A stretch of 64,000 nt of DNA, taken from NCBI RefSeq assembly GCF_901905185.1, contig NZ_CABFMQ020000131.1, positions 62,001-126,000 on the forward strand. Reading direction: 5' to 3'. Both the position numbers and the translations under genes were made by a program. The stretch is from Methylocella tundrae (GTDB lineage Bacteria; Pseudomonadota; Alphaproteobacteria; Rhizobiales; Beijerinckiaceae). Positions 23,077 through 39,508 of the stretch are shown here, piece by piece (the stretch's first letter is position 1; every line of letters starts with the position of its first letter). The notes under the pieces were generated by a model. The model was not told the DNA's origin and ran no database searches. It saw only the letters and a program-made list of their open reading frames with translations.

Positions 23077-24520
23077 TGCGACCGCCTATGGCCCAAGCTG
23101 CGCGCAGATCTATGAACTCGGCCTCTTTGCGGGCCCCGCGAACAACAACGAAGACTGTCTCTATATCAATGTATTCACACCCGACGTTGATCCCGCTGGC
23201 AAAGAAAGGCTGCCCGTCATGTTCTGGAGTTATGGCGGCGCAGCCGTCGATGGCGAGAGCAATGATTATGATGGGAGCAAGCTCGCCCGTGACGGCCATA
23301 CGGTCGTCGTTACCTTCAACTATCGCCAGAACCTCTTCGGCTTCCTGGCGCATCCCGCCCTGGATCACGAGGGTCATTTGTTCGCCAATTATGGCATCCT
23401 CGACAACCAGTTTGCTCTTAAGTGGGTGAAGCGAAACATCGAAAAGTTTGGCGGCGATCCGAATAATGTCACGGTCTTTGGTCAATCTGCCGGGGCGAGA
23501 AACACAGGTTCCGAGGTATTGTCGCCGCTCGCCAAGGGTTTGTTCAACCGCGCGATCTTCGAAAGCGGCGCTATACCCATTGAAACGCCCTTAAGCATTG
23601 CTGAAGCGAAGGGGACAGCTTTTGCTGTCGCCGCGGGATGTGGCTCTTTATCGGATGCGGCTACCGCCAAATGTCTGCGCAGTCTGAGCGCGGCGCGGGT
23701 CGAGTCCTTTGCGGGAACAACGACAAGCTCCAACGGCGCTTATCTGGCGGGTTTGATCACGGACGGCCAAATCCTGCCGCTCCCGGCGATCGACCAGTAC
23801 CTGAGCGGCAACTTCAATCATGTTCCCATCATCAACGGGAATGCGGAAAACGAGGGCAATTTCTTCATCGCCCTGACGGAGTATTTCGAGTCGCCGCGCG
23901 CGCCGCTCACGGAAGCTCAATTTGTGGCGTATGTGAACAGTGTGTACAGCGGCAACGCTGGGCCTGGCGGGTCGCCGCCGGCATATCCGCCGGGGACTGT
24001 CGCGGCGGTTTTGGCCCAGTATCCACTCAGCGCCTATCCGAGTCCGCAATTGCAATGGGGCGCGTTGGAAACGGATGCTAATTACTCTTGCATCTCTCGC
24101 CACATGGATCAAATCCTGGCTAACCAAGTGCCTCTCTATACCTACGAATTCCGAGATCAAACTGCGCCCTTCTACTACCCTCCCATGCCCGGGTTCGCAT
24201 CCTTGGCGTATCACACGAGCGACATCCAATATTATTGGCCGCTCTATCACGGCGGACAAGGAACGCCACGCCCGCTCAACAGCAAGCAGGAGGAGCTCTC
24301 GGATCAGCTCGTGACCGCTTGGACGAATTTCGCATGGACAGGCAATCCGAATGGGCAAGGGAATAAACCCTGGCCGCGTTATAAAGCGCCCAATGGTCTT
24401 TTCCTGGCTGAAGACATCAAGCCGGCTGGGTTGTCGACATTTACGGCCGATCAATTCAGCGCTGAACATCACTGTGATTTCTGGGACAAACTGCTGGTGT
24501 ACAAGTCCACCACGCCCTAA
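22787..24520 (+). CDS. Secreted type-B carboxylesterase 3
   Basis: 577 residues from ATG 22787. Residues 1-97 are nearly identical to esterase 1 (same signal peptide), and the remainder is a diverged paralogue. It keeps NEDCLYINV, nucleophile elbow FGQSAG (Ser about 234), the acid region NGNAENEGNFF and YHTSDIQYYW. The oxyanion segment reads WSYGGA, with Tyr149 where esterases 1 and 2 have His, so catalysis or substrate choice may differ. It is followed by an IS630 remnant. Confidence 0.83.
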   Translation: MSKLSKLWRRLRSRADTSRASGAGFALSLLFATSAALTPLQADAAGKFRVETKEGPVKGFLNNGVAEFLGIPYAAPPIGNLRWRPPQKHERWTNVLHATAYGPSCAQIYELGLFAGPANNNEDCLYINVFTPDVDPAGKERLPVMFWSYGGAAVDGESNDYDGSKLARDGHTVVVTFNYRQNLFGFLAHPALDHEGHLFANYGILDNQFALKWVKRNIEKFGGDPNNVTVFGQSAGARNTGSEVLSPLAKGLFNRAIFESGAIPIETPLSIAEAKGTAFAVAAGCGSLSDAATAKCLRSLSAARVESFAGTTTSSNGAYLAGLITDGQILPLPAIDQYLSGNFNHVPIINGNAENEGNFFIALTEYFESPRAPLTEAQFVAYVNSVYSGNAGPGGSPPAYPPGTVAAVLAQYPLSAYPSPQLQWGALETDANYSCISRHMDQILANQVPLYTYEFRDQTAPFYYPPMPGFASLAYHTSDIQYYWPLYHGGQGTPRPLNSKQEELSDQLVTAWTNFAWTGNPNGQGNKPWPRYKAPNGLFLAEDIKPAGLSTFTADQFSAEHHCDFWDKLLVYKSTTP

Positions 24521-25173: not shown

Positions 25174-25320
25174 CCGGATTCTAGTGAGCCGATACAGCTT
25201 CATTCCTGGGGATTGCTAAGGAGGCGCGCCTATCGGCGACTGCCAAACAATCTGAGTCCTGATGAAGGACGCTGCGCCCTGCGACAGTCGCGGCAATTTC
25301 AGCTTTTTCTCAAGGTGGGT

Positions 25321-25770
25321 CTATTCTCGCTCTGGGGTATCGGGCTTCGCCGAACCCCCAAGTATTGACGCGGTCCAGCTGAGATCGACCGCCTTTTTAG
25401 CAAATATGGCACCGCAAATGGCCGCAATCGCGACGAGACATAGAAAAAATACTATTCCAGAAGCCAGCCCATTGAAAATTATGATAAGGGCGGTCACACC
25501 AATAGTCACAGCAAGGACGGCGGACGTAGAAATAACAGCGATATTTCTTGCTGAAGTTTCTTTGCTAATGGCGTGTGTCGTCGCATCCATAATTTTATTT
25601 GCTAGCTCTGGATTATGCTGCGCAAGCTTCTCAAGCGCCGCAAGAGCGGATGGATGCACATTCAATGTCTCAGCGTTTACTGACACAGACAAAACGTTAG
25701 GTGGGAAATGCGCCTGTACGGGGGATGATATCTCCCCCGTCTTAGGTACCTCGCTATTCGCAGCGCTCAT
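25321..25770 (-). CDS. Small membrane protein of a two-gene module
   Basis: 149 residues. A soluble N-terminal part includes HPSALAALEKLAQHNPELANKIMDA, followed by two adjacent hydrophobic segments (about residues 77-98 and 101-125; NIAVISTSAVLAVTIGV and GIVFFLCLVAIAAICGAIF) and a short tail. The overall plan resembles DUF2335-like small membrane proteins, but I cannot confirm this. Its start overlaps the upstream gene by 17 bases, so both are made together. Base composition is AT-richer than the chromosome. Confidence 0.55.
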   Translation of the reverse strand: MSAANSEVPKTGEISSPVQAHFPPNVLSVSVNAETLNVHPSALAALEKLAQHNPELANKIMDATTHAISKETSARNIAVISTSAVLAVTIGVTALIIIFNGLASGIVFFLCLVAIAAICGAIFAKKAVDLSWTASILGGSAKPDTPERE

Positions 25771-26137
25771 TTTCTTGTTTTCCAGCGTCTACCGTAGCTT
25801 TCGCAATACTTTTATTCTGTTCTTCCGCATCCAAGAAAGCTCTTGCAATAGACCCGTTTGAATTGATCGTTCTAGTAAGTGTCCTTTCGAGCATGTCTGA
25901 CTTGCGATAAGTATCCCGAATAGCTCGCACGAACCCTCTTAACGAAAGGACGTCGACAATCCCTTCACAAATAGGATTTGTCCCGCGGATCTCTACAGTA
26001 AACACTTCGCCCATAAGATCAGACCCGCCGATTTCGTATATCTTCTCCGTGCCGGCGGACGAAATACGCTGTTGTTTGAACTTATGCCGCTGCAATCCCG
26101 TATATTTCTGTGTTACAGTTTGCCTATAATGGGACAT
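25754..26137 (-). CDS. Hypothetical protein, first gene of two-gene module
   Basis: 127 residues, soluble and basic at the N-terminus (SHYRQTVTQKYTGLQRHKFKQQ), then a beta-rich middle (GEVFTVEIRGTNPICEGIVDVLS) and a helical, polar C-terminus. It precedes and overlaps the small membrane protein gene. I see no known domain. The pairing of a soluble protein with a two-helix membrane protein in an island is reminiscent of toxin or defence modules, but nothing in the sequence proves that. Confidence 0.5.
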   Translation of the reverse strand: MSHYRQTVTQKYTGLQRHKFKQQRISSAGTEKIYEIGGSDLMGEVFTVEIRGTNPICEGIVDVLSLRGFVRAIRDTYRKSDMLERTLTRTINSNGSIARAFLDAEEQNKSIAKATVDAGKQENERCE

Positions 26138-26889
26138 GCTGGTCCCCTTTCATTCTAGCTCGTAGGATAGGCGTCAGAACGATTTGCACTGCGGTCTCGT
26201 AATGGTTATGAGTGTGAAACTCACGATCGTCAATCGCCTATACGCATAGAGGTTCGAACTGTCGCGAGCCTTAGTTGATAGCCTATTGTCACACTTTCAA
26301 GCATCGAAAACTCAATAGTGATGCGCCGTCACGGCATTGACGGCGCATCACAAGCAGCCCGCGCGTCCTCGCTTCTTCGCAGCGCCCATGAGGCGAAGGC
26401 ACCGCAACGGCCTCTGCCGGATTACGAATGGCAGATCGCGGCCGAGGGAGATAAAGAGCGATGGACTGGTTTGAGCGGGTCGCGCAGCCTTCGGCGTTTC
26501 GGATGGAGTTCATTGGCCATATCGACGGTCAAACCGAGCCCGAGATTCCGCACAAGATCGAGGGTCTTTTCAAAGACCTTAACGCCGATGTCGACGAGGG
26601 CAGCCGCCTCTGGTCGTCCATTCACGACGCTCGCGGCGCGGTAGGCTTCCGCGTGGCGCAAGGCGACGGATCTTGGATCGCGCATCGGTTCTGCGGCGAT
26701 TCGCGGCTTGGACGATGATCGTCGGGGATGAGCTGGAAGGGGTAGTTTCGGCCCGGCGGCATTCTAGGCGTGAACAATCCGAGATCAAACTCCACGGATT
26801 CTCCACGAGTGCCGTCGCTATGTTCTGCGGTTGTTCGCTGATTTCTGCCAAGTTGGGCCGACATTATATCGGCTAAGTGCTTGACTTAA
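26138..26889. other. 750-bp region without an assignable gene
   Basis: Short open frames exist on both strands around 26420-26720 (for example 26461-26718 plus and 26422-26685 minus), but they are mutually antisense, and neither shows a recognisable domain or clear ribosome binding site. The region probably holds decayed island DNA and the promoter of the module at 26137. Confidence 0.4.
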
Positions 26890-26939
26890 TGGTGGGCGCG
26901 ACAGGGATTGAACCTGTGACCCCTCCCGTGTGAAGGGAG
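26890..26939 (-). repeat. tRNA-Val 3' half duplicate, attachment site
   Basis: These 50 bases are identical to 34590-34639, the 3' half (anticodon arm to CCA) of the tRNA-Val gene. Past 26939 the similarity stops, so the 5' half is missing and this is not a tRNA gene. It marks one end of an element integrated into the tRNA-Val 3' end. The integrase remnant begins 209 bases away, inside the element. Confidence 0.88.
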
Positions 26940-27065
26940 ATAAACGCCGGTTACAGGAGGCTTATTGCGGCATAAGGAGTATATTTTGTTCTCCCGTTAA
27001 CCATTGATTTTATGTGTTTTTCCGCATTGCACGGGATATGTTAGGATTTGCGCGTTTAGTTCGAT

Positions 27066-27085
27066 CGTGCTGCCTATGTGCTACC
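27066..27085. repeat. Possible integrase arm site, matching 34521-34540
   Basis: CGTGCTGCCTATGTGCTACC here matches CGTGCTGCCTGCGTGCTACC at 34521-34540 at 18 of 20 positions. Both copies lie inside the tRNA-Val direct repeats, one near each end, as expected for arm-type binding sites of a tyrosine integrase. The role is inferred. Confidence 0.4.
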
Positions 27086-27106
27086 CAAAGCTCCGTTGGG
27101 TAGCAC
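27078..27106. promoter_or_regulatory. 11-bp perfect hairpin upstream of integrase
   Basis: GTGCTACCCAA (27078-27088) pairs perfectly with TTGGGTAGCAC (27096-27106) across a 7-base loop. No T-run follows. It lies 42 bases before the integrase start and overlaps the possible arm site, so it may be an operator or a structured attachment-arm sequence rather than a terminator. Confidence 0.5.
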
Positions 27107-27147
27107 CGCTTCCATAAAATTGGCTCCCTTGAGGGGCGCGGAGCCGG

Positions 27148-27698
27148 ATGCTATCTATGCCTAAGAGAAAGATCACCGACATTGTCGCAGCCGCCGCCGA
27201 GCCCAGCGAAGGCCAGCAAGAGCAAATCTATTGGGATACGGACGTTGTCGGCTTCGGGCTTCGTGTACGGCCATCCTCGAAAACCTGGATTATGGCTTAT
27301 CGCCCTGCTGGCGCGGGCCGGAGCGCGAACACTAAAAAGCTCAGGCTCTCGACTTTCCCGAGCGTCAAGACCGTCGAGGCGCGCAGGTTGGCGCGCGAAA
27401 TCGCTGGACGCATCGCGGCCGGCGAAGACCCGGCGGTCAACCGGACTGAGCTCAAGCGGAAGGAAACATCCAGCGTCGGCGCGCTCCTGGACCGCTACGG
27501 CGACGACCTCGCACGCCGAGGCTACGTCAACCGCGTGACAGTCATCAATGGCCTTGAGGCGCGCCTGGCGCCCTTTAAAGCGCGCGATATTAAGACCGTG
27601 TCCGGCGCCGATCTGTGGGCAATTATCGAAGCGCTGCAAAAGGTCGGCAAAGAAGGCGCCGCTGAAGACTTCCGATCGCGCGCACGCGCGTTTTTTAC
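27148..27698 (+). pseudogene. Tyrosine integrase N-terminal stump
   Basis: From ATG 27148 the frame encodes a DUF4102-type arm domain (IYWDTDVVGFGLRVRPSSK and WIMAYRPAGAGR) and part of the core-binding domain (LLDRYGDDLARRGYVNRVTV, then GKEGAAEDFRSRARAFF). At 27699 it is cut by the left end of the IS1595-type element. No catalytic domain with Arg-His-Arg-Tyr is found on the other side of the insertion. The integrase is dead. Its place next to the tRNA-Val fragment identifies it as the recombinase of this element. Confidence 0.8.
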
Positions 27699-27779
27699 GG
27701 CGATTATCCCGTACTTGACAAATCTCCCCGGCGACGGCATAGATGGCTGCGACAGGCCACATTTTCCTTTGCTATCCCA

Positions 27780-28637
27780 TTAATCCTCGCCTTCGTAGTC
27801 GGGCTCATTCTCGACTGCGGAAAACCTGCCTTTGGCGGGGTCGTACTTTCGAGCAAAATAACGTGTTCGGAGTGTTTTAAGCCGATCACGAAAGTGGATG
27901 TAGCCGAGTACATAAAGGTTCTTTCCATCTTGCACGCTGTTTTCGAATTCACACCCGAAAAAGCGCCCAGGAGGCACCTTATCACCGGGGCCGATCGTAT
28001 CTCCGAATTTATAGATGTCGGTAAGGTCCATATATTTCAATGGCTTAATATCAGGGTTGTCTCTTCTCAATGGCGAATTCATCGGCAGCCATGGTTCTTT
28101 CTGCCAATGAGCGAGGCATCCCCCGCTATCAACGACCGCATCCTCGCTACCGTTATTGACGCCCAAAAGAGCCCCAGAAATAATGGTTCCATGGATAAAT
28201 GGGGGCGGGACATTTGTGAGGGCAAACGCCTTTCCATGTCCCTTTTCCCAAATATGGAAGTGAGATACTTTAAGTTGCGGGGGATGGGCGAGCGTGAGTT
28301 GATCACGCGTGGCCTGGACAGCGTTAGTGGCTGCGTCGGCCGAGTCTTTGACAGGCCCATAAACCTTTCTCATTTCGCCCAGTTGGCAATAGAAAATAAT
28401 GGCAGTTATAAAGGTGAAGAGAGCAGTGAGGAACGATCCAAGAATCGTCAGTCGTTCTCGGCATTCCTTGCGATAATCAGCGCTCTTGCCTTTCTCGAGA
28501 TAGGCATGGAATTTCTCGGCTATTTTCAGCGCTATGCGGGATGGCCAGGAATTGCGGCATTGATAATAGCGTTCGTCTGCATTTCCGTTGCCGGTATTTG
28601 CGCTTTCTTTGTGACGATCACCGTCATCAATTGGCAT
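27780..28637 (-). CDS. IS1595 passenger membrane protein
   Basis: 285 residues. An N-terminal charged part is followed by one membrane helix (about residues 64-86, LTILGSFLTALFTFITAIIFYC) and a large soluble domain (AHPPQLKVSHFHIWEKG, GALLGVNNGSEDAVV, PGRFFGCEF, LYVLGYIHFRD) of beta-sandwich character. The gene starts 15 bases after the transposase stop and ends 57 bases inside the left inverted repeat, so it travels with the element. Passenger genes are known in some IS1595 subgroups. This protein's function is unknown; an envelope or sensing role is possible. Confidence 0.7.
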   Translation of the reverse strand: MPIDDGDRHKESANTGNGNADERYYQCRNSWPSRIALKIAEKFHAYLEKGKSADYRKECRERLTILGSFLTALFTFITAIIFYCQLGEMRKVYGPVKDSADAATNAVQATRDQLTLAHPPQLKVSHFHIWEKGHGKAFALTNVPPPFIHGTIISGALLGVNNGSEDAVVDSGGCLAHWQKEPWLPMNSPLRRDNPDIKPLKYMDLTDIYKFGDTIGPGDKVPPGRFFGCEFENSVQDGKNLYVLGYIHFRDRLKTLRTRYFARKYDPAKGRFSAVENEPDYEGED

Positions 28638-28652
28638 GAAGAGAAAGCTCCG

Positions 28653-29570
28653 CTAGCATCCCTTGATCGCCGTCCCAAAAATATCTGCATTGAGGCGATT
28701 ATTATATCGAAATTGGAACTCAGCAACGTAGAGGGGAAGGTATTTCTTACTGACCTTGTGGAAAGTTCCGACCATGCCGCGCTTCAGGATCGACCAGAAC
28801 CCCTCGATGGTCTGAGTATGCACAGCACCGATAACATATTGGCCGCGAGCATGATCAACTGTAGCGTGGGGATATTTCTTATCGAGGGGCCTGTAGCCTG
28901 TGAATTGGTCGGTGCAGAGCAAGCTGACTTTCGTCGATATGGCCTCACGCACAAACTCTGTGAGGGTAGCCGCCTGTACATTAGCGATGACGCGAGCAAC
29001 CACGTTGCCTTTGCGCTGGACCGCGCCCACGACAGTTTCCTTGCCGCAACCGCCTGTGCCACCGGAACCGTCCCCGCGCTTGTCCTTATGCCGATTTTTG
29101 GCTTTGCCGCCGACGAAAGTTTCATCAACTTCGACGATGCCCATCAGCTTTTGGAATTCTGCGTCGGCAAGTCCCGCGCGGATGCGGTGGCACATATACC
29201 AAGCCGTCTTATAGGAACCGATCTCCATTGTACGGTAGATCTGGAGTGCGCTGACGCCTTTTTTTGCGGTGAGCATTGCATGGATGACGCGGAACCACGT
29301 CTTGAGCGGCTTATTCGTGTTCTCGAAGATGGTATCGACCAAGACGGAGAACCGATAGCCGTCCGGCGCGCAAGCGCGGCATTGCCAGTGGAACTCTTGG
29401 TAGGACGAAGCGTCGTAAAGTTCGACATTCCCGCAGCGTGGGCAGGCGACGCCATCAGCCCAGCGGTGCGCAACCAGATAGGCTTTGCAAGCCGTTTCGT
29501 CGGGGAACATCTCCTCAAGCTGGGAGACGGTCAATTGCTTGATGATCTTGTCTTGTTTGGCGCGCGCCAT
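28653..29570 (-). CDS. IS1595-family transposase (ISXO2-like)
   Basis: 305 residues. An N-terminal zinc ribbon (Cys pairs in CPRCGNVELYD and CRACAPDG, about residues 43-70) is followed by the ISXO2-like DDE domain: GIVEVDETFVGGK (first Asp), LLCTDQFTGY (second Asp), HTQTIEGFWSILKRG (third acidic position) and the closing FQFRYNNR. The frame is uninterrupted and full length, so the element may still move. It is transcribed toward the passenger gene. Confidence 0.9.
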   Translation of the reverse strand: MARAKQDKIIKQLTVSQLEEMFPDETACKAYLVAHRWADGVACPRCGNVELYDASSYQEFHWQCRACAPDGYRFSVLVDTIFENTNKPLKTWFRVIHAMLTAKKGVSALQIYRTMEIGSYKTAWYMCHRIRAGLADAEFQKLMGIVEVDETFVGGKAKNRHKDKRGDGSGGTGGCGKETVVGAVQRKGNVVARVIANVQAATLTEFVREAISTKVSLLCTDQFTGYRPLDKKYPHATVDHARGQYVIGAVHTQTIEGFWSILKRGMVGTFHKVSKKYLPLYVAEFQFRYNNRLNADIFGTAIKGC

Positions 29571-29735
29571 GGCTGGTTCCCCTCATGTAGGGACAGGATG
29601 GCATGAGCCGAGGTGTTTGTCAAGTACGGGATAATCGCCCTTTGTTTGGATCCTCGCCGACTGCAAAGGAGCAGTCCTCCCGGTCGTTAAACGACTCCTA
29701 GCCACTCGTTGGAGGCTTCGCGATCGCCCGCCCCC

Positions 29736-30257
29736 TCAACTCCCGTCGAGCAAATGGTCCCGGATCAGCGCGCGGGCGCCGCGATCCCAGGAATAATCCG
29801 CGCCGATGCGCAGATCGCTTGTGCGCGTCAGGATGATGGCGCCGGTGTGGGCGTCGCGGATCACGAAACTCACCACATAATCGGTGCGGGTGATCCGCGT
29901 CACGATGCCGAGAAATGACTGATCGGCGCCGAGCTTTTCCGCGATGGGCGCCTCGCAGCCGTGGCATTCGCGCAAGCTGCGGTCCTTGACGCCCTCGCCC
30001 TGCGCGCCCGCGACATCGACCAGAGCATAGCGCCCGGACGCCGCGATGAGCTGGCGCGCCATGCTGGTGACGTCGTCGAGATGCCTCAAGTCGGCGGCGG
30101 GATCGCCCGCGATGCCGGCCCCGCCGCTGAAATCCTTGAGCTCGAAATCAAACAGCGCAAGCTTGACCGGAGCCGAATCGGCGCGGGCCGGAAGCGTCGC
30201 GAAAAGGGCGATGGCGCAGGCGGCGAACAGGCGGCGCTGGAAAATATTGGTTTTCAC
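29736..30257 (-). CDS. Periplasmic DUF2380/DUF3280-type protein 1
   Basis: 173 residues from GTG 30257, chosen because CAGGAA lies 5 bases upstream and the next residues form a signal peptide (VKTNIFQRRLFAACAIALF, cleavage near ARADS). The mature part has KLALFDFELKDFS, RYALVDVAGAQ, a CHGCEAP Cys pair, LGADQSFLGIVTRI, IRDAHTGAIIL and DYSWDRG, which I recognise as a small family of unknown periplasmic proteins common in methylotrophic alphaproteobacteria. It is paralogous to the gene at 30790 and divergent in orientation from the nearby kinase. Confidence 0.65.
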   Translation of the reverse strand: MKTNIFQRRLFAACAIALFATLPARADSAPVKLALFDFELKDFSGGAGIAGDPAADLRHLDDVTSMARQLIAASGRYALVDVAGAQGEGVKDRSLRECHGCEAPIAEKLGADQSFLGIVTRITRTDYVVSFVIRDAHTGAIILTRTSDLRIGADYSWDRGARALIRDHLLDGS

Positions 30258-30316
30258 TGGAATTCCTGCTGCAATGATCGGGTAAAGCGAAGGCCTCTCC
30301 ACCGCATGAAGAGGGG

Positions 30317-30766
30317 TCAGCGCGACGCGGTTTCCCGTTGCTTCGCCTCGTGCTCGATGCCGTCGATGAGCCCGGAGAGGGCGCCGAAAAGGAGAGGGAC
30401 CAGCTCCTCTTTCGCCTCCGGCGCGACGTCGATTTCGACGCGCCACGAGACTTCGGAACGGCCCTCCGGCGCGGGGCGGATCTCGACCGTCCCGACATAG
30501 CTCTTGACCGGAAAGGGCGAGCGCGTGCGCGTGTAGCGCAAGCGCCGGCGCTGATGATCGATCTCGTCGATGCGGTCCTCGATTTCGCCGCCGCCCGCGC
30601 TGGCGGCGAGGCGCAGGAAGCGCCGCGCGCCCACGCCCGCGCCTTCGACGCGGCAGCTCTCGATGAGGGGAAGCAAGCGGTCGAGGCCGCCGATGGAGGC
30701 GACGACGGCGAAGGCGGCGTCGGGCGGCGCGTCGATCCTTTTGATGGGGTTCACGGATTCAATCAT
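30317..30766 (-). CDS. SRPBCC / polyketide cyclase-like protein
   Basis: 149 residues from ATG 30766 behind GGGAG. The pattern (IKRIDAPPDAAFAVVASIGGLDRLLPLIESC near the start, YVGTVEIRPAPEGRSEVSWRVEI in the middle, LVPLLFGALSGLIDGI helix at the end) is the START/Bet v 1-like fold of SRPBCC proteins, which bind small hydrophobic ligands. It has no signal peptide, unlike its two neighbours. It is likely in one transcription unit with them. The ligand is unknown. Confidence 0.7.
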   Translation of the reverse strand: MIESVNPIKRIDAPPDAAFAVVASIGGLDRLLPLIESCRVEGAGVGARRFLRLAASAGGGEIEDRIDEIDHQRRRLRYTRTRSPFPVKSYVGTVEIRPAPEGRSEVSWRVEIDVAPEAKEELVPLLFGALSGLIDGIEHEAKQRETASR

Positions 30767-30789
30767 GGCAAGTCTCCCAAGGTGTGCTT

Positions 30790-31302
30790 TTACGAAGGCG
30801 GCAGCGCGGTGATCTCCTCGAAGATGAAGGCTTCGGCCCGACGCCAGGCGTCGTCCGTGTCGCCGCGAAAGGTGAACAGCTTGTCGAACAGGACGCGCCC
30901 CGTCTTGGCGTCGATCGCCTCGATCTTCGCCCATTGCACCAGCGTGCTCATCTTGTGGATCCCGCCGATAATGACGACGTCCGCGCCAGCTTCGCGCGCG
31001 GCGGCGAGGAGATTGGGAACAGTCGTGCTCGTGAGAGAGCATGGCTCGGGGCGGCACACCGGCGTCACGACCTGGAACTGCGAGCCTTTGGCGAGATCGC
31101 TCCTGAGGGCGCCCGCCAAGGCGGTGAGCCGCGCCTCATGCTCTTTGCGCTGATCGCGCACCTCGCCCGACGTGTCGAGATAGTCGAAGTCGATCACCGC
31201 GATCGCGCCGCCCTGCACCTTCGCGCCGGCATCCTCGGCCTTGCCGCAGGACGGCGCCAGCCACAGGCCGGCAGCTAGTATCGGAAGAAGTAAATGACGC
31301 AT
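30790..31302 (-). CDS. Periplasmic DUF2380/DUF3280-type protein 2
   Basis: 170 residues from ATG 31302. The signal segment is MRHLLLPILAAGLWLAPSCG, possibly a lipoprotein signal ending at Cys19. The mature part has AIAVIDFDYLDTSGEVRDQ, FQVVTPVCRPEPC (a Cys pair), ADVVIIGGIHKM, IDAKTGRVLFD and DTDDAWRRAE, parallel to the protein at 29736. The gene is the first of the minus-strand trio, divergent from the histidine kinase gene across a 187-bp promoter region, which suggests control by that kinase pair. Confidence 0.65.
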   Translation of the reverse strand: MRHLLLPILAAGLWLAPSCGKAEDAGAKVQGGAIAVIDFDYLDTSGEVRDQRKEHEARLTALAGALRSDLAKGSQFQVVTPVCRPEPCSLTSTTVPNLLAAAREAGADVVIIGGIHKMSTLVQWAKIEAIDAKTGRVLFDKLFTFRGDTDDAWRRAEAFIFEEITALPPS

Positions 31303-31489
31303 GTCGCAAATCCCCGTTGTTTCGCCGTCACCTTGCGCGGACGGCGGGCGGCCGGAAAGCGCGCGCGTCCCGGCTATGGCCGGGCAATTTGCCCGATCGT
31401 CCGCGCGCGCCTTCCATGGGGCGGGTTCCGCCTCTAGACTAAGCGCGGCTTTGCGGCTGCGGCCGCCAACCTCGCGAAAGAATTCGCCA

Positions 31490-32902
31490 ATGCGAGCGTC
31501 AAGGATCGACCTCAAGCTTCGGCTCGCCCTGCGCGTCGCCGCTCTGGCGGCGTTCTGTTTCGCCGCCGCCGCGGCTTACGTTCTGTTCGAGACGGACCAC
31601 GCCGCGCAGGCGCGGGCGAACTGGATCGCCGAGGTCCTCGCCAAAGACCTCGCGCTGCAACAGGGCCAGCTCCACTGGATCAAGGGCGCGCCCAGCCAGT
31701 TCCCCGATTTGCAGAGAATTGCGCCGGCGCTGATGGCGCCCGGCGTCTGCGTCGCCTATCGCGCGCGGGATGGCGAGATGATTCAGCGCCTGTGCAGCGG
31801 CGTCGCGCCCGGCGACGCCGGCGCCCCACAGCTTTTCGCCGACCTCTACCAGCGCCTGTTTGGCGCGGACCGGGAGTCGGCGCGTCGCGTCATCTACCAC
31901 GGCGAGGCGCAGGGGGAGGCTGTGGCGTCCATTGATCGCCAGAGCCTCATCGGACAGAGCTGGCATGAGACGAGCCGCCTCGTCGGGGTCCTCGCCGTCG
32001 CGTTGCTTGCGTTGTGCGTCCTTGTCTACGCTGCGCTCGCCGACGCCTTGCGGCCGACCCGGGCGATCCGCGCCGGGCTTCAGCGCCTCGCCGCCGGCGA
32101 TCTCTCGGCGCGTCTGCCGCCCTTCGACCTCGCCGAGCTTTCGGCGGTCGGCAACGTCTTCAATCATCTCGCCGGCAGCCTTGAGACGACGCTCGCCGAG
32201 CGCAACGCGCTGACGCAGCGGCTGATCGCGGTCCAGGACGAGGAGCGGCGCCATCTTGCGCGCGAGCTGCACGATGAATTCGGGCAGTGCCTCGCCGCCA
32301 TCGGTGCGGTCGCGGCCTCCGCCGCCCAGACCGCGCGGCGGGAGTATCCGGCGCTGGCGCCCGCGTGCCAGAGCATCGCCCGCACGGCCGCACATATGAT
32401 GGAGGTGCTGCGCGGCGCGCTTTTGCGCCTGCGTCCGCCCGATGTCGATGAGCTTGGCCTCGCCGCGAGCCTTGAAGGCTTGGTTTCTGGATGGAACGGC
32501 CGCTGCGCTGGCGGCACGCGTTTTTCAATCGAGCTTGGCGGCGAATTCGACGCGCTGCCGCGCGATTTCGCGGCGAGCCTTTACAGGATCGCGCAGGAAG
32601 CGATCACCAATGCGGCGAAACATGCAGAGGCTTCGCAGGTGACGCTGAGGCTTGACATGCGGGAGCCCGCCGAAGCGGATCAGCGCGCGCGCATCGAGCT
32701 TACCGTCGATGACGACGGCAAGGCCGGGGCCGACGTCTCGGTCAAATCCGGCATGGGGCTGCTTGGCATGCGCGAGCGCATCGCCGCGCTCGGCGGCGCA
32801 TTGAGCATCGAGACCTCGCGCCCGAGCGGGCTTCGCCTTCGCGCGCGAATTCCCGTCCCGCCAGCGGAAACGCCCCCGGACGAGACGAGGGACGCGGCGT
32901 GA
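31490..32902 (+). CDS. Membrane histidine kinase (NarL-partner type)
   Basis: 470 residues from ATG 31490. It has two membrane helices (about 13-33 and 163-185) around a periplasmic sensing loop of about 130 residues, a HAMP domain (about 186-240), a HisKA_3 dimerisation domain with phospho-acceptor His261 in RELHDEFGQ, and an HATPase domain (EAITNAAKHAEA N-box, GMGLLGMRER G-box). It phosphorylates the response regulator encoded next, whose start overlaps its stop. The layout matches FlhS-type kinases of C1 metabolism, but the signal cannot be deduced. Confidence 0.85.
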   Translation: MRASRIDLKLRLALRVAALAAFCFAAAAAYVLFETDHAAQARANWIAEVLAKDLALQQGQLHWIKGAPSQFPDLQRIAPALMAPGVCVAYRARDGEMIQRLCSGVAPGDAGAPQLFADLYQRLFGADRESARRVIYHGEAQGEAVASIDRQSLIGQSWHETSRLVGVLAVALLALCVLVYAALADALRPTRAIRAGLQRLAAGDLSARLPPFDLAELSAVGNVFNHLAGSLETTLAERNALTQRLIAVQDEERRHLARELHDEFGQCLAAIGAVAASAAQTARREYPALAPACQSIARTAAHMMEVLRGALLRLRPPDVDELGLAASLEGLVSGWNGRCAGGTRFSIELGGEFDALPRDFAASLYRIAQEAITNAAKHAEASQVTLRLDMREPAEADQRARIELTVDDDGKAGADVSVKSGMGLLGMRERIAALGGALSIETSRPSGLRLRARIPVPPAETPPDETRDAA

Positions 32903-33600
32903 CGGACGTTGCAATAATGCTCGTCGACGATCATGCGATAGTGCGCGAAGGCTATCGCGCGCTGTTGCAGCAACAACCGCGCCTCAAGGTCGTCGCCGAA
33001 GCGAGCGATGGCGCCGAGGCCTATCGTCTGTTCAAGCAAGCGAAGCCGGATCTCGTCATCATGGATCTAACCATGCCGGGCTTCGGCGGCGTCGAAGCTA
33101 TCAGGCGCATCCGGCAATGGGATCCCAATGCCCGCATTCTGGTCTTCACCATGCATCAGAACGCCGCTTACGCCGTGCAGGCGATCCGCGCCGGGGCGAA
33201 GGGCTATGTCACCAAAAGCAGTCCGCCCGAAGCGCTGGTGCGCGCCGCCTTCGATGTGCTGCAAGGCAGAATTGCGCTCAGCGCCGACATAGACCATGAG
33301 CTCGCGCTGAGCCGCGTCGCAGATGCGCCGGTCGCCACCGATGTGCTGACGCCGCGCGAGTTCGAGATTTTACGCATGTTGCTTGCGGAAAACTCGACCG
33401 AGGACATCGCCGGAATTCTTCACGTCAGCCCGAAGACGGTGGCGAATACGCGCTACCTCATCAAGAGCAAGCTTGGCGTTTCCTCCGACATTGAACTCGT
33501 TCTCGCGGCGCTGCGGCAGGGAATTTTGGGCGCGGGGGGCGATGTCGAGCGGAATTCGGGCAGCCCTTCGGCCGCGCCAGAGGCGCCAAAGCTCGCCTGA
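32899..33600 (+). CDS. LuxR/NarL-family response regulator
   Basis: 233 residues from GTG 32899, overlapping the kinase stop by 4 bases. The receiver domain has Asp10-Asp11 and phospho-acceptor Asp56 (LVIMDLTMPG), with Lys in GYVTKSSPP. The C-terminal LuxR helix-turn-helix (LTPREFEILRMLLAENSTED and SPKTVANTRYLIKSKLGV) binds DNA. It pairs with the kinase and probably regulates the divergent operon at 31302, its own operon, or C1-related genes elsewhere (FlhR-like arrangement; inference). Confidence 0.88.
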   Translation: MTDVAIMLVDDHAIVREGYRALLQQQPRLKVVAEASDGAEAYRLFKQAKPDLVIMDLTMPGFGGVEAIRRIRQWDPNARILVFTMHQNAAYAVQAIRAGAKGYVTKSSPPEALVRAAFDVLQGRIALSADIDHELALSRVADAPVATDVLTPREFEILRMLLAENSTEDIAGILHVSPKTVANTRYLIKSKLGVSSDIELVLAALRQGILGAGGDVERNSGSPSAAPEAPKLA

Positions 33601-33781
33601 AACCTGTATGATGCGGCTTCGCACGCCCCGGCGCGCTTTGAAATTGACCACAATTCGCGCTTTAGCTGCGCGATGCGCATAGGGCGCGAAAGATCGGGAG
33701 CGTGGCGGGGGCCTCGAACAAGCGAACTCTTGCAAGGCTGGCAAAACCAGCAAGGCTTAACCGCCGAGGCTCCAATCGCCG

Positions 33782-34066
33782 ATGAATCAGTTTAATCTGT
33801 CCTTTTCGCCGCTTCTGCCCTCATCCATTCTGATCGGCTTCGGCGTTCTGGCGCTGATCGTGGTCGCGCTCGGCATATATGCGCGCCGGCGCGGCGCATG
33901 GCTGCGCGCGCTCGGCCTTGGCCTCCTGCTGCTGGCGCTGGCCGATCGCTCCCTCGTTCGCGAAGACCGCGCGGGGCTGAAGGACGTCGTCGCCGTCGTC
34001 GTCGATCAGAGCGGCAGCCAGACCATCGGCGAACGGCAGGCGCAGACCGAGAAGCCGGAGTTATGA
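33782..34066 (+). pseudogene. Truncated membrane/VWA-like protein gene
   Basis: 94 residues remain: two membrane helices (LIGFGVLALIVVALGIYA and WLRALGLGLLLLALAD) followed by LVREDRAGLKDVVAVVVDQSGSQTIGERQAQTE. This is the N-terminus of a protein of roughly 690 residues, in which VVVDxSGSQ starts a von Willebrand-like domain. After QAQTE the reading breaks at about 34050-34063 and different DNA follows. The rest of the gene is absent from the window, so this is a breakpoint, not a simple stop mutation. Confidence 0.7.
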
Positions 34067-34493
34067 CATCACGTTTGGCCCTCTCGACTGTGCGACTGCG
34101 CTTTGTGGAGAGTATAGGCCGACGTCTGAACTGCAGCGCATCGTCGTCGCCCTACGCCGCCACGACAAGGTCTCAACCGAGACCGCGGCGCTCGACTATA
34201 TCGTCAAGATGGATGCCGAAGAGAGGCGAAAGGCATACGTCGAATTGGCGGAAGCCAACAAGGCTTACGCGAAGTTTCGCCAGCGATTGGATGATTTTGT
34301 GGCCTTTTTCGCTCCTGACAATATCGCGCGGATTGGAGCGTGGGCCAGCCATGCTTCCCATCCGCAGCCTTTCGAGGCTGCGTTGCTATCAGAGAGGGGC
34401 ATTTCGGTGGTATCCATGCGACAAGGGGCTCATCAATTCCGAGCGGTGCTGAATGATCTTTGGATTGCGATCCCGGATTGGCCAGAGCCGTAG
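34059..34493 (+). pseudogene. 3' part of an unknown gene, 5' end lost
   Basis: An open frame without a start codon enters from the breakpoint (YDITFGPLDCATALCGEY), continues through LQRIVVALRRHDKVSTETAA and DYIVKMDAEERRKAYVELAEANKAY, and ends at 34493. The first ATG is at 34209. It looks like the C-terminal 140 residues of a helical protein of the integrated element. I do not know the family. Translation could begin at 34209, but the frame before it appears equally coding. Confidence 0.5.
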
Positions 34494-34520
34494 CGCAACC
34501 GTCCAATTACAAGGTACGCC

Positions 34521-34540
34521 CGTGCTGCCTGCGTGCTACC
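34521..34540. repeat. Possible integrase arm site, matching 27066-27085
   Basis: This copy lies 50 bases inside the tRNA-Val gene end and matches the copy near the other end of the element at 18 of 20 positions. It is the counterpart of the site described at 27066. Confidence 0.4.
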
Positions 34541-34589
34541 TGACACGGCCGTCGCAAAAAGATATTACCAGCTAACTTATTGATTTTAG

Positions 34590-34664
34590 TGGTGGGCGCG
34601 ACAGGGATTGAACCTGTGACCCCTCCCGTGTGAAGGGAGTGCTCTCCCGCTGAGCTACGCGCCC
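34590..34664 (-). tRNA. tRNA-Val (anticodon CAC)
   Basis: Read on the minus strand, the cloverleaf is complete: acceptor GGGCGCG paired with CGCGCCC, D-arm with AGCGGGAGAGC, anticodon stem CTCCC/GGGAG with loop TTCACAC (anticodon CAC), T-loop TTCAATC and encoded CCA. It decodes GUG. Its 3' half is duplicated at 26890-26939, so it served as an integration target and was rebuilt intact. Confidence 0.93.
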
Positions 34665-34850
34665 GTCCGGCTCGCCGCCCGAAAGGGCTGGGTCGGATCG
34701 ACCGCCGCGAGACGAAGCGGTTCCTTTATGAAACGCCAAGGGTTGAAGTCAAGCTCGATTCACTGAATTGCCATGCATCTTGCGCGGGCGCCGAGGCTCA
34801 AAGAGGCCAAGAACCCTCCGGTTCTGGTGAAAGGCGCGCGGTAGGGCGCA

Positions 34851-35420
34851 TCATCGCTCCGCCCCCTCCATGACAAATGCCCAAAGACGGTCGTACCAGA
34901 GGGTCTGATCGGCCGGCGAGGAATGCGCGTTTGCCGGACTGGGGTTCGGCACGACGAAGAGGCGCGCGCCTGCGATGCGCAAAGGTTGCGCTCCGAGGAC
35001 CGCCTCGCTGTCCACCCCCAGCATTCGATGAAATATCCGGTAGGCCGTCATGCCATGGAAACAGGCGACGCCGGGGCGGTAGCGTTCGAGCTTTTCTATG
35101 AGAAGCGGCGCGCCCGCGGCAAACTCCGTCACATTGAGTTCGCTGGCCCGCGCCGTCGGTCGCGCGACCATGTCGGTGAAGCCGAATCCGTGGTCGAGCA
35201 AGGCGCGGTCATGCGTCGGGCCGAGCGAGGATGCGCCAATCGCCTCGCGCGCCGCCAGACTCAAGACTGAACGCGAGAAGGCAGGCCAGAATCTGTTCGT
35301 TTTGCGCGCGAAATAATGTCCCTGCGAAGCCGAGAAGATCGATGGATTGATGCCGACGAAGACCACTTTAAGGCCTTCGCGCAGAAGATCGGGCAGGCCG
35401 GGCGGATTTTCATCGTCCAT
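34851..35420 (-). CDS. mug: G:T/U mismatch-specific uracil-DNA glycosylase (Mug type)
   Basis: 189 residues from ATG 35420, chosen for an AAGGGG just upstream; a start at 35459 is possible. It has the Mug/UdgX-superfamily motifs VVFVGINPSIFSASQGHYF (motif 1, GINPS) and VVPNPSPANAHS (motif 2), plus NRFWPAFSRS. It removes uracil or thymine mispaired with guanine. The spelling of motif 2 (NPSPAN rather than NPSGLN) departs from the E. coli enzyme but is common in alphaproteobacteria. It is a single gene, opposite in orientation to the phosphoesterase. Confidence 0.8.
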   Translation of the reverse strand: MDDENPPGLPDLLREGLKVVFVGINPSIFSASQGHYFARKTNRFWPAFSRSVLSLAAREAIGASSLGPTHDRALLDHGFGFTDMVARPTARASELNVTEFAAGAPLLIEKLERYRPGVACFHGMTAYRIFHRMLGVDSEAVLGAQPLRIAGARLFVVPNPSPANAHSSPADQTLWYDRLWAFVMEGAER

Positions 35421-35564
35421 TGCCAGCCCCTTTGCCGGCCGCCGATCCCGCGTGGTCATTTTGCATAAAAATTCCGGACTTGTTCTTGAGCGTCAAAACA
35501 ACACAATGCGCAGCGTTTACAATCAAGTCGATTTGCGCCGGTTGGCCCGCCGCAGCTTAGGACA

Positions 35565-37118
35565 ATGATGAACATGCAGTTTGGACGTCTGGCCCTGACG
35601 AGCGGCTGTCTGATTTTCGCGCTCGCCGCCGCAGCGAACGCAGGCGATGCGCCGCCCGCTCCCAAGGGGCTCGAAAAAATCGAAACGATCGTTGTGCTCT
35701 ATGCGGAAAATCGCAGCTTCGATAACCTTTATAGCCGCTTTCCGGGCGCCAATGGCCTTCTCGATTTCAAACCCAGCGAAGCGCCGCAGCTCGATCGCGA
35801 CGGGGCGCCGCTGCCCGAATTGCCGCCGATCTGGGGCGGCCTGACGCCGAGAGGCGTCGAGCCGGCGGTTGACCAGGAGCGAACGGCCCATCTGCCCAAC
35901 GCGCCTTTTGCGATCGACGATCCCAAGGGTTTCAACACGCCGCTTAGCGTTCCGACGACCGATCTCGTCCATCGCTTCTATCAAAATCAGATGCAGATCA
36001 ATGGCGGCAAGAACGACAAATTCGTAGCCTATGGCGATTCCGGCGCTCTCGTCATGGGCCATTACGAAGGCCCGAACCTGCCGCTCTGGCCGATCGCGCA
36101 GCGCTATGTGCTGGCCGATAATTTCTTCATGGGCGCGTTCGGCGGCTCTTTTCTCAACCATTTCTTTCTCGCCTGCGCCTGCGCGCCGCGCTATCCGGGC
36201 GCGGACAAGAGCCCAGCCAAGGGGTTGATCTCGGTTGTCGATCCGGACGGCGTTTCGCTGACGCTCGACCCTAACGCGCCAAAGTCCGCGCTCGAACGTA
36301 TTCCGAAATTTGTCCGCGATGGCGCTCTGACGCCGGATTTCTACGCCGTCAACACGATGCAGCCGCCCTATCAGCCGAGCGGCGTCAAGCCCGCCCCTGG
36401 CGGCGATCCGGCCTATGCCGATCCCGATAAGCCAAGCACGCTGCCGCCGCAGACCGAATTGACCATCGGCGATCTTTTGAGCGCCAAGGGAGTCAGTTGG
36501 GCCTGGTACGCCGGCGCCTGGCAAGTGGCGCTCGACGGCGCCAAAGTCGAGCCCAATCCGAAGTTCCAGTTCCATCACCAGCCGTTCAACTATTTTGCCT
36601 CGATCGCTCCCGGGACGGCGGCGCGCGAGGAGCATTTGCGCGATGGCGGCCTTGGCGGTGATAAATTCATCGCGGCGATCGATACGGGAACGCTGCCGCA
36701 GGTGACGTTCTACAAACCGCAGGGCGATCTCAACGAACATCCCGGCTATTCCGACGTCATGGCGGGCGATGAGCATCTCGCCAATCTTGTCGCCCATCTC
36801 GAAAAGAGCCCGCAGTGGGCGCATATGGTCGTCGTCATCACCTACGACGAGAATGGCGGCTTCTGGGACCACGCCGCGCCGCCAAAGGGCGATCGTTGGG
36901 GGCCGGGGACGCGCATTCCGGCTTTTATCGTGTCGCCTTTCGCCAAGAAGGGTTTCATCGATCACACGCTCTACGATACGAGTTCAGTGCTGCGGCTCAT
37001 TACCGAACGATTCGGTCTGCCGACGCTGCCGGGCCTGCGGCGGCGCGCGGGCGCGATCGCGGCTGGCGGCCATCAGCTTGGGGACCTCACCGGCGCGCTT
37101 GATCTGGCGACGCCATGA
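35565..37118 (+). CDS. Exported acid phosphatase / phospholipase C-like phosphoesterase
   Basis: 517 residues with a signal peptide (cleavage near AANAG, about residue 27). It belongs to the phosphoesterase family of AcpA acid phosphatases and bacterial phospholipase C: IVVLYAENRSFDNLYS carries the metal and nucleophile-region Glu-Asn-Arg-Ser, FGGSFLNHFFLACACAP follows, and VVVITYDENGGFWDHAAPP is the second metal-binding block. It hydrolyses phosphate esters in the periplasm. Its stop overlaps the start of the next gene (ATGA). Confidence 0.82.
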   Translation: MMNMQFGRLALTSGCLIFALAAAANAGDAPPAPKGLEKIETIVVLYAENRSFDNLYSRFPGANGLLDFKPSEAPQLDRDGAPLPELPPIWGGLTPRGVEPAVDQERTAHLPNAPFAIDDPKGFNTPLSVPTTDLVHRFYQNQMQINGGKNDKFVAYGDSGALVMGHYEGPNLPLWPIAQRYVLADNFFMGAFGGSFLNHFFLACACAPRYPGADKSPAKGLISVVDPDGVSLTLDPNAPKSALERIPKFVRDGALTPDFYAVNTMQPPYQPSGVKPAPGGDPAYADPDKPSTLPPQTELTIGDLLSAKGVSWAWYAGAWQVALDGAKVEPNPKFQFHHQPFNYFASIAPGTAAREEHLRDGGLGGDKFIAAIDTGTLPQVTFYKPQGDLNEHPGYSDVMAGDEHLANLVAHLEKSPQWAHMVVVITYDENGGFWDHAAPPKGDRWGPGTRIPAFIVSPFAKKGFIDHTLYDTSSVLRLITERFGLPTLPGLRRRAGAIAAGGHQLGDLTGALDLATP

Positions 37119-38311
37119 ACTTACCTGCGGCCGCGCCGGCGACGAGGATTGAAGCCATGTTGATGCCGGCCACGCCTGACCTTGAGTCCAAAGTCGATGC
37201 GCTGGCTAATGATTTTGCGCGCCGCGCTGCGGAGCATGACGAAGCTGGATCGTTCCCGTTCGAGAATTTTGACGCCCTGCGCAAGGCCGGGCTTCTCGCG
37301 CTCACAGTCCCGCCTGCTCTCGGCGGCCTCGGCGGCGGCCTTCGCGCCGCCAATCGCGTCGTCAACGGCATAGGGGCGGGCGAGCCTTCAACCGCGCTGG
37401 TGCTGGCGCAGCAATATCTTTTCCACTTCCGGATGCTGCGTAATCCCCATTTTCCGCAGGCCTTGAGCGAGGAGATCGCGCGCTCGGCCGTCGCCGAGGG
37501 GGCGCTGTGCAATATGCTGCTGGTCGAGCCCGAGCTTGGCTCGCCGATCCGTGGCGGCTTGCCGGCGACGATCGCCCGCCGCGTCGAGGGCGGCTGGCGC
37601 ATCACGGGGCGAAAAATCTATTCGACCGGAAGCGTGGCGTTGAGTTGGATTGGCGTGTTTGCGCGCAGCGACGACGCCGATCCGCTGGTCGGCGCCTGGA
37701 TTATTTCGGGCGGCTCAGAAGGCGTCAGGATCGAGGAGAGCTGGGACCATCTCGGCATGCGCGCCAGCGCCAGCCATGACATGATCTTCGACAATGTTTT
37801 TGTCGCGGAAGACCGCGTCGTCGATCTGCGGCCCGCCGCGACCCAGCAGAAGCCGGACGATGTTGTCTCGGCGTGGATCGCCACCCTCTTCACTACGATT
37901 TATGACGGGGTCGCCCGCGCGGCGCGCGACTGGCTCGTAGCGTTTTTGCACAGTCGGAGGCCCTCTAACCTCGGCGCGTCTCTTGCCAGTTTGCCGCGAA
38001 TGCAGGAGGCGGTCGGCGCGATCGACGCTTTACTTTACGCGAACCGCGCTTTGCTCGCCGACATTGCCAGCCGCTGCGACAGCGGCGCGGCGCCTCCCGC
38101 GCGCGAGAGCCACTTCATGAAGCTCGCCGTCACGACGAACGCCATCGAGGCCGTCGCCAAGGCGCTGGAGGTCTCGGGCAATCCCGGCCTTTCGCGCCAT
38201 CATGCCCTGCAACGCCATTATCGCGATGTGCTGTGCGGACGGGTCCATTCACCGCAGAACGACGCCATTCGGCTGGACGCGGGGCGAGAGGCTCTGTCCA
38301 TTATCCCATGA
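37115..38311 (+). CDS. Acyl-CoA dehydrogenase-like flavoprotein
   Basis: 398 residues coupled to the phosphoesterase gene by a 4-base overlap. The acyl-CoA dehydrogenase fold is visible: N-terminal helices (FENFDALRKAGLLALTVPP), middle beta domain (CNMLLVEPELGSP and WRITGRKIYSTGS, DHLGMRASASHDMIFDNVFV) and C-terminal helical bundle. The family includes desaturases and FMN-dependent monooxygenase-like members (DszC type); the substrate cannot be read. No electron-transfer partner is encoded nearby. Confidence 0.75.
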   Translation: MNLPAAAPATRIEAMLMPATPDLESKVDALANDFARRAAEHDEAGSFPFENFDALRKAGLLALTVPPALGGLGGGLRAANRVVNGIGAGEPSTALVLAQQYLFHFRMLRNPHFPQALSEEIARSAVAEGALCNMLLVEPELGSPIRGGLPATIARRVEGGWRITGRKIYSTGSVALSWIGVFARSDDADPLVGAWIISGGSEGVRIEESWDHLGMRASASHDMIFDNVFVAEDRVVDLRPAATQQKPDDVVSAWIATLFTTIYDGVARAARDWLVAFLHSRRPSNLGASLASLPRMQEAVGAIDALLYANRALLADIASRCDSGAAPPARESHFMKLAVTTNAIEAVAKALEVSGNPGLSRHHALQRHYRDVLCGRVHSPQNDAIRLDAGREALSIIP

Positions 38312-38342
38312 TATTTGAGCCCGGCCGCATCGAACAGCGTCG

Positions 38343-39380
38343 CTACTTTTCCGTGATCTTCAGTTCGATCCGGCGATTGCGCCGATTGGCCTCGTCGCTG
38401 TCGCCGGGGTCGATCGGTTGGAACTCGCCGAAGCCGGCGGCGGCCAATCGCTGCGGCGATACGCCCTTCGAGGCGAGATATTGCACCACCGCGATCGCCC
38501 GCGCGGCCGACAGGGCCCAGTTCGATGGATATTGCGCTGATTGAATCGGCTTTTTGTCGGTGTGGCCATCGACGCGAACGATCCAGGGAATGTCCGGCGG
38601 GATCTCATGTTCAAGCTCGATCAGCGCGCTCGCCAGCTTGTCGAGTTCCGCGCGGCCTGCGGCGTCGAGGCTCGCCTGACTGGATTCAAACAGAAGTTCC
38701 GATTGGAAGATGAATCGGTCGCCAACGACGCTGACGCCCGGCCGGTCGCCGAGAATCTGGCGCAGGCGTCCGAAGAAATCGGAGCGGTAGCGGGCGAGCT
38801 CCTGCACCTTCTGGGCGAGAGCTACATTGAGCCGCGATCCGAGGTCGGCGATCTTCGTCTGCGATTCGGCCCCGGCCTTTTCCGAGGTGGCCAAAGCCTC
38901 TTCAACAGCGGCGAGCTGGCGCCTCAGGGCCGCGATCTGCTGATTGAGGATCTCGACCTGAGCCAGCGCCTTGGCCGATACGTCTTGCTGTGACTGTAAC
39001 TGCTGCTGCGCGCTGGCGGCGCGCGCGTCGGCCGCTTCGGCGCTTTGCGCCCCAGCGCCCTTTGAATCGATAATGCCCTGCAATCGGGCCTTGTCGTGTT
39101 GCTCGGCTTCGAGATTGGCCGACAGCGTGGCGGCCGTGTTCTCCACTTCCGCCTTGTTGCTGCGCTCAAGCGCGAGAAGCGCGCTGAGTTCCTCGATCTG
39201 GCGATTGAGCTTCGTCAGGGCGGTGTCTTTGCCGGTCACCTCCCGCGCCAGAAAGAATTGCGCCAGCATAAAGACCGACAAAAGAAAGATGATGACGAGA
39301 AGCATGGTCGAAAGCGCGTCGACGAAACCCGGCCAGTAATCGATGTGGCGCATCCGCTGCCGCGAACGAGTTGAAGCCAT
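38343..39380 (-). CDS. OmpA/MotB-like peptidoglycan-binding membrane protein
   Basis: 345 residues from ATG 39380. It has one N-terminal membrane helix (LSTMLLVIIFLLSVFMLAQFF), a long Gln/Ala-rich coiled coil (about residues 50-190), and a C-terminal OmpA domain (DGHTDKKPI, NWALSAARAIAVVQYL, GFGEFQPI, NRRNRRIEL) that anchors to peptidoglycan. It is downstream of a MotA-like gene and likely forms a stator-like or envelope-bridging complex with it. No flagellar genes are present. Confidence 0.8.
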   Translation of the reverse strand: MASTRSRQRMRHIDYWPGFVDALSTMLLVIIFLLSVFMLAQFFLAREVTGKDTALTKLNRQIEELSALLALERSNKAEVENTAATLSANLEAEQHDKARLQGIIDSKGAGAQSAEAADARAASAQQQLQSQQDVSAKALAQVEILNQQIAALRRQLAAVEEALATSEKAGAESQTKIADLGSRLNVALAQKVQELARYRSDFFGRLRQILGDRPGVSVVGDRFIFQSELLFESSQASLDAAGRAELDKLASALIELEHEIPPDIPWIVRVDGHTDKKPIQSAQYPSNWALSAARAIAVVQYLASKGVSPQRLAAAGFGEFQPIDPGDSDEANRRNRRIELKITEK

Positions 39381-39508
39381 CAAAATTGCTCGCTCATGAG
39401 GGCGCGGTGATTGAGGGTAGGGCGCCCCTGACTTATCGGGGCCTTGCTTGCCGCCGTTTCGTTAGAGCCGGACGGCCTCGGACCGAATTGCGACGCGATC
39501 TTTTTCAA

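Follow-up and report, generated by a model that had tools for sequence, protein, structure and literature searches.

Genomic islands that tyrosine integrases insert into tRNA genes are recognized by a duplication of the 3' part of the tRNA, an integrase gene adjacent to an attachment site, arm-like motifs in both ends, and relatives that lack the insert; those with a PF13356-containing integrase are presumably the ones labeled P4-type. Gene conversion between duplicates within one bacterial genome, which yields a homogenized, sharp-edged tract between two copies, is also reportedly known, for instance, from rRNA operons. Both kinds of system appear to meet in a single locus of the DNA analyzed here, a window of 64,000 nucleotides that comprises bases 62001-126000 of contig C131 of genome G000, a 4.52-Mb draft in 163 contigs that, together with G129, we take to represent strains of the methane-eating soil bacterium Methylocella tundrae. 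The best explanation of this locus, and a very probable one, is that a defective element inserted in a tRNA-Val gene carries a foreign cluster of signaling genes as its cargo and that, in the G129 line, part of this cargo was later exchanged with the homologous cluster resident in the chromosome. The hallmarks of a tRNA-integrated island are all present, namely, the repeat of the tRNA 3' part, the tyrosine integrase next to one attachment site, and occupied as well as unoccupied sites, and so is the hallmark of intragenomic gene conversion, a near-identical tract with abrupt edges between divergent copies. Unlike the known tRNA-targeting islands, this one has an integrase that is broken in both carrier strains and a cargo consisting of a regulator cluster with a resident homolog; unlike the known conversions, the exchange described here had as partners the cargo of a mobile element and a resident homolog, with flanking genes about as divergent as those of different species. 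The element itself is an ordinary genomic island in a state of decay; what stands out is the history of its cargo, chiefly the sharply bounded swap with the resident cluster. In the literature on Methylocella genomic islands, searched by titles only, no title on a tRNA-Val element was found.

The DNA searches covered 15 Methylocella genomes, among which G129 (3 contigs) is the only one of the same species as G000; G040 and G076 are taken to be M. silvestris TVC and BL2, respectively. The window was compared with G129 through matches of more than 80% identity, and protein comparisons across the order drew on 396 other genomes.

The tRNA-Val element and its integrase

A sequence-only reading of this DNA had pointed to a tRNA-Val direct repeat bracketing an element, an arm-site-like match inside both ends, an integrase stump at the correct end and an IS1595 element in the interior, and all of these were borne out. 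The intact tRNA-Val(CAC) gene (34590-34664, minus strand, predicted with ARAGORN) includes an attachment site (34586-34639, plus strand) that matches the distal copy of the 3' part of the tRNA (26886-26939, plus strand) in 53 of 54 positions, with an exact 50-nt core that corresponds to nucleotides 26-75 of the tRNA. Two sub-parts of the repeat, at up to 3 mismatches, occur in the window only in these two places (chance expectation, 0.00). The putative arm-type site GTGCTGCC-N3-GTGCTACC at 27067-27085 (plus strand), which is followed by an inverted GTGCTACC at 27099, has its counterpart near the tRNA end (34521-34540, plus strand), where the same 19-mer recurs with 2 mismatches at 34522 (0.02 occurrences expected in the window). 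With these two expectations, a chance origin of the repeat is ruled out.

The integrase gene of G000 is an N-terminal stump (27148-27698, plus strand) in which Pfam detects only the arm DNA-binding domain (PF13356) and which ends at the first base of IS1595. A relative in M. silvestris TVC, at 75% DNA identity to the window across the attachment site and the integrase gene among the matches listed for this region, contains an open 396-aa integrase (PF13356 and PF00589), 78% identical in its N-terminal part to the protein encoded by the stump and adjoining an exact 45-nt fragment of tRNA-Val. An arm-like motif is found in TVC both beside the integrase (3 mismatches) and near the tRNA (2 mismatches), these matches having no shuffled control, and it lies 48-66 nt past the tRNA in TVC compared with 50-68 nt in the window. 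Judging from these sequences, this integrase family appears to use tRNA-Val. The phage-like TVC element (contig C78) thus resembles that of the window in its related integrase, the same tRNA-Val fragment and a similar arm motif, but it carries primase/helicase-, invertase- and ejection-like genes, none of which is found among the ten scanned open reading frames (ORFs) of the window element. Pfam detected no relaxase or conjugation genes and no phage structural or replication genes among these ten island ORFs of G000, and a PHROG scan of three island ORFs matched only the integrase stump, to a family of unknown function; a conjugative element and a prophage were rejected on these ORF scans.

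The IS1595-family element (27699-29639, minus strand) has perfect 24-nt terminal repeats and a transposase gene (28653-29570, minus strand; PF12762, NF033547). It agrees with its family in the transposase and the terminal inverted repeats but differs in three respects, namely, the missing DNA next to it, a passenger ORF and the lack of a target-site duplication. The passenger ORF (27780-28637, minus strand, 285 aa) has no Pfam, NCBIfam or PHROG match and is weakly matched in 2 of the 396 other genomes of the order. The IS1595 family generates 8-bp target duplications; none is present between the flanks TTTTTTAC and CTTTGTTT, which a deletion next to IS1595 would account for. The same element is found in G129, where window positions 26888-27698 (97.3% identity) and 29642-41649 (98.6%) are collinear but IS1595 is missing and its place is taken by 3,968 bp with the catalytic, PF00589-containing part of the integrase gene and three complete or partial transposase genes. 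The simplest reading would be a deletion beside IS1595, and perhaps caused by it, in the G000 line, although G129 may have acquired some of its transposases later. The integrase gene of G129 is not in one open frame either, so neither strain is expected to move the element.

The tRNA-Val half is present in 13 of the 15 genomes of the genus and occurs twice in five of these (G000, G129, G040, G123 and G128). In G128, two exact halves lie 40 kb apart (the copy at G128:C1:2914645-2914691, in locus L227, G128:C1:2908001-2926000; the tRNA at 2954699), and this genome probably carries a larger island at the same site. Directly to the left of the distal attachment site, the 1.7 kb of G000 (25180-26886) and the corresponding 0.67 kb of G129 share no match above 80% identity up to the tRNA fragment, possibly as a result of a further insertion or deletion.

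Exchange between the island and the resident cluster

The signaling cluster consists of DUF3280 protein a (29736-30446, minus strand; PF11684), an SRPBCC/polyketide-cyclase-like ORF (30317-31057, minus strand; PF10604), DUF3280 protein b (30790-31515, minus strand; PF11684; for both DUF3280 proteins, the ORF bounds are given and the start is not fixed), a sensor histidine kinase with HAMP, HisKA_3 and HATPase_c domains (31499-32902, plus strand) and a LuxR/NarL-type response regulator (32899-33600, plus strand; PF00072, PF00196). G129 contains a second, chromosomal copy of this cluster (locus L177), without the membrane-protein gene discussed below. A near-identical tract of approximately 2.7 kb, 30842-33532 in window coordinates, joins the island and chromosomal copies of G129; its edges, at 30841 and 33533, are abrupt, and it takes in most of the DUF3280b gene, the kinase gene and most of the regulator gene. 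To the left of the tract, the two G129 copies are only 77.3% (DUF3280a) and 78.5% (SRPBCC gene) identical, i.e., about 22% different, and the DUF3280a allele of the window is 77.7% identical to the chromosomal copy of G129. The silent divergence between the G129 copies is 0.39 in DUF3280a and 0.37 in the SRPBCC gene (the latter on 50 silent sites), compared with 0.47-0.50 for the intact membrane-protein gene between species of the genus. Within the tract, the corresponding values are 0.016 for DUF3280b, 0.003 for the kinase and 0.000 for the first 200 codons of the regulator, so selection on the protein cannot explain the near-identity.

Across positions 30860-33500 (2,641 bp), the two G129 copies differ at 4 sites, compared with 15 differences between the islands of G000 and G129. 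At 13 of the 17 variable sites of the tract, the G129 pair agrees against G000, and the chromosomal copy and the G129 island each stand alone at 2; visual polarization of the 13 sites against the outgroups G103, BL2 and TVC placed 7 of the changes in G000 and 3 in the G129 pair, with 3 ambiguous. An exchange of about 2.7 kb between the island and the resident cluster thus took place in the G129 line, and because the G129 copies agree against the G000 island, it postdates the parting of the two islands. The G000 island, which had no part in the exchange, has the same allele, which implies that this allele was on the island beforehand. It is therefore rather likely that a single event copied the island sequence into the chromosome.

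The phylogeny of the tract tells against this direction: its affinity is to G103, at a low support of 66/67, although a grouping with M. silvestris is not rejected (p-AU 0.27), and the silent distances from the tract to G103 and to BL2 are alike. These figures would suit an older exchange in the opposite direction, from chromosome to island, by which the tract would be the species' own allele, followed by a second exchange that homogenized the G129 copies. We regard this possible course of events as unlikely, if the most serious of the alternatives, given that it needs two events with coincident edges and that the tract shows no internal zone of intermediate divergence. It is also possible that the donor was an island in another strain, so that donor and recipient would not have been in one cell, and that the chromosomal tract of G129 was replaced by DNA of that strain rather than by DNA of its own island. 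The sequences would look much alike in this case, but the tract differs less between island and chromosome within G129 than between the islands of G129 and G000, and we consider such a donor improbable.

If the sequence was indeed copied from the island to the chromosome, regulator alleles could cross species boundaries and become resident with no trace of an element beside them, and ordinary comparisons of core regulators would mislead.

Origin of the cargo

The sequence-only reading had left two options for the signaling cluster, cargo carried by the element or a rearrangement that placed it at the tRNA. Comparison with empty tRNA-Val sites and with clusters elsewhere favors the former. The conserved right flank of the island (34851-37118) encodes a uracil-DNA glycosylase (PF03167, minus strand) and a phosphoesterase (PF04185, plus strand); among the matches listed, G119 and G120 have the tRNA-Val, the glycosylase and the phosphoesterase together without the cluster, and G121 has the tRNA-Val and the phosphoesterase alone, likewise without the cluster, all three with a single copy of the tRNA-Val half. 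Long DNA matches to the cluster were found in at least 5 of the 15 genomes (G000, G129, G040, G076 and G103), and G122 and G127 match it in DUF3280a alone, again among the matches listed. The cluster lies at tRNA-Val in G000 and G129, both with the repeat and the integrase, and the 20-kb regions retrieved with it from G040, G076 and G103 are devoid of tRNA genes. Rearrangement holds in the narrow sense that IS1595 in G000 replaces the end of the integrase gene and adjacent DNA; it does not account for the placement of the cluster.

Downstream of the regulator, the island contains a 5' fragment of a gene for a DUF7408-like membrane protein (33782-34063, plus strand), and the cluster does occur elsewhere with this gene complete. 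In BL2, the cluster leads straight into the gene (699 aa; DUF7408-like, below the Pfam cut-off), and the order is the same in TVC, so that the island arrangement, the cluster followed by the membrane-protein gene, is seen in 2 of the 8 genomes compared (counting only matches with more than 90 identical positions). In a survey of 51 loci by regulator, from which kinase and regulator matches below 50% identity were omitted and the weak loci L054-L061 left aside, the membrane-protein gene was near the regulator in one locus (TVC), some loci stopping close to the regulator. The interval between a YmdB-like gene and the membrane-protein gene, with lengths approximated from alignment ends, is about 6.3 kb in BL2 and 9.7 kb in TVC, cluster included, about 0.2 kb in G103 and G119, without the cluster, about 1.8 kb in G120 and 1.1 kb in G121, and about 2.2-2.3 kb in G000 and G129, with a beta-propeller gene in G000. 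This interval is variable in its own right, at about 0.2 kb in two species and 1-10 kb in the other 6 genomes (L137, 9000-15331; L143, 3761-5989).

The membrane-protein gene fragment of the island is 83.9% identical to BL2, 81.3% to TVC and 77.6% to the intact copy that G000 contains elsewhere, and its placement with M. silvestris has a local support of 0.98-0.99. That the resident cluster had recently relocated to the tRNA within the genome was rejected, as the G000 copies of this gene differ by 22-26%. These comparisons support the view that the cluster is cargo of the element, seemingly from another species. The truncated membrane-protein gene ends near 34063 and is fused there to what is left of a second truncated gene, a 3' fragment (34064-34493, plus strand) whose frame matches only the C-terminal part of 298-401-aa frames in 5 of the 396 other genomes of the order and has no family in the NCBIfam and PHROG scans; it probably belongs to the element's own gene set. 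Since two truncated genes are joined at one point, a non-homologous join before or during capture is implied.

That the cluster is instead a resident chromosomal segment placed by a rearrangement beside the tRNA, with the element reduced to a small remnant, is very improbable. The cluster occurs in many alphaproteobacterial genomes and G000 lacks a second copy, as this scenario would have it; however, the repeats enclose it in both G000 and G129 together with further element-like sequence beyond the cluster, its left-hand genes differ by about 22% from their resident counterparts in G129, and the tRNA of G119, G120 and G121 is free of it.

Age, present state and proposed history

The islands of G000 and G129 differ by 2.2% in the integrase part, 3.2% in the gene fragment and 1.2% at the right end, compared with 1.65% in the right flank, and the island was likely inherited from an ancestor of both strains. 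In G000, no second close kinase was found, the next best being 32% identical, and the resident cluster of G129 has no second match in this draft besides the island. The outer flanks of the resident cluster map to the G000 contigs C84, C13 and C93, and the adjoining stretches give only short or scattered matches. As the G000 draft lacks the resident cluster, this strain probably has no copy other than that of the island. The reading frames of the island kinase and regulator are open in G000. The dN/dS values of the two genes against other species, about 0.08-0.24, mostly reflect history before capture, and the regulator, with 2 silent and 1 replacement changes between the islands, has changed too little to judge selection.

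On a tentative view, to which we give slightly less than even credence, the element's foreign copy of the two-component regulator has displaced the resident allele twice within a single species, having overwritten it in one strain and remained as the sole copy in the other, with the integrase lost. If so, dead islands would have a route to rewrite core regulation. The likely chain of events in this methanotroph would be that an integrative element captured a chromosomal regulator, carried it from one species to another and became immobile, after which the resident copy was either lost or took part in an exchange. An assembly artifact in G129 or G000, suggested by the draft state of the latter, can be practically dismissed, since the island was read in two separate assemblies at 97-99% identity, an assembler would hardly merge copies 22% apart, and 4 differences remain in the tract.

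We propose that some 4.3 kb of host chromosome, from DUF3280a to the first approximately 94 codons of the membrane-protein gene, first came into the element by a non-homologous join that also truncated another gene, in a different Methylocella lineage akin to M. silvestris. The tyrosine-integrase element now occupies the 3' end of tRNA-Val(CAC) in both M. tundrae strains, as its anatomy with the 50-nt fragment at the far end shows, and is dead in G000, with IS1595 in place of the catalytic half of the integrase and further DNA that G129 has. The exchange of the tract with the resident cluster in the G129 line followed the parting of the two islands and was most likely a copying from the island.

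Several observations weigh against this history or parts of it. The SRPBCC gene is present in both G129 copies and is unmatched in the cluster loci retrieved from G103, BL2 and TVC, so that the cargo, having this gene in common with the chromosomal copy of G129 alone, is not simply M. silvestris DNA, and its donor lineage is unsampled. A search of positions 1-40000 of TVC contig C78 did not recover the sequence that BL2 has past its tRNA, so that BL2 provides no clean empty-site match to the TVC element. In the cargo genes, the two islands show 12 silent differences over approximately 896 silent sites, compared with 20 over 546 for the intact membrane-protein gene of the two strains, and the island may have passed between the strains at a later time. 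With 4 silent and 4 replacement changes separating the kinase genes of the islands, the evidence of selection on the island copies is thin, and the 163-contig state of G000 bears on the absence of a resident copy.

As to the role of the cluster, no NCBIfam model scored above the cut-off for the kinase and none appeared for the regulator among the best 25 of 109 matches, and no literature was found that links DUF2380 with a histidine kinase. A gene that appears to resemble fae lies 4.4 kb from the resident cluster of G129, and this neighbor led us to consider a possible formaldehyde-sensing role for the cluster.

Elsewhere in the window, two carboxylesterase-like copies (named from their translations; 17431-18712 and 22407-23691), about 84% alike, lie 5 kb apart in direct orientation. 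Furthermore, 43 nt of a tRNA-Thr(CGT) gene located to the left of the window (C131:60372-60447; nucleotides 28-70 of the tRNA) recur exactly at 14069-14111, near two phage-integrase matches (12747-13211, minus strand; 14962-15396, plus strand), an arrangement suggestive of another tRNA island, at tRNA-Thr(CGT), with a length of about 15.7 kb.

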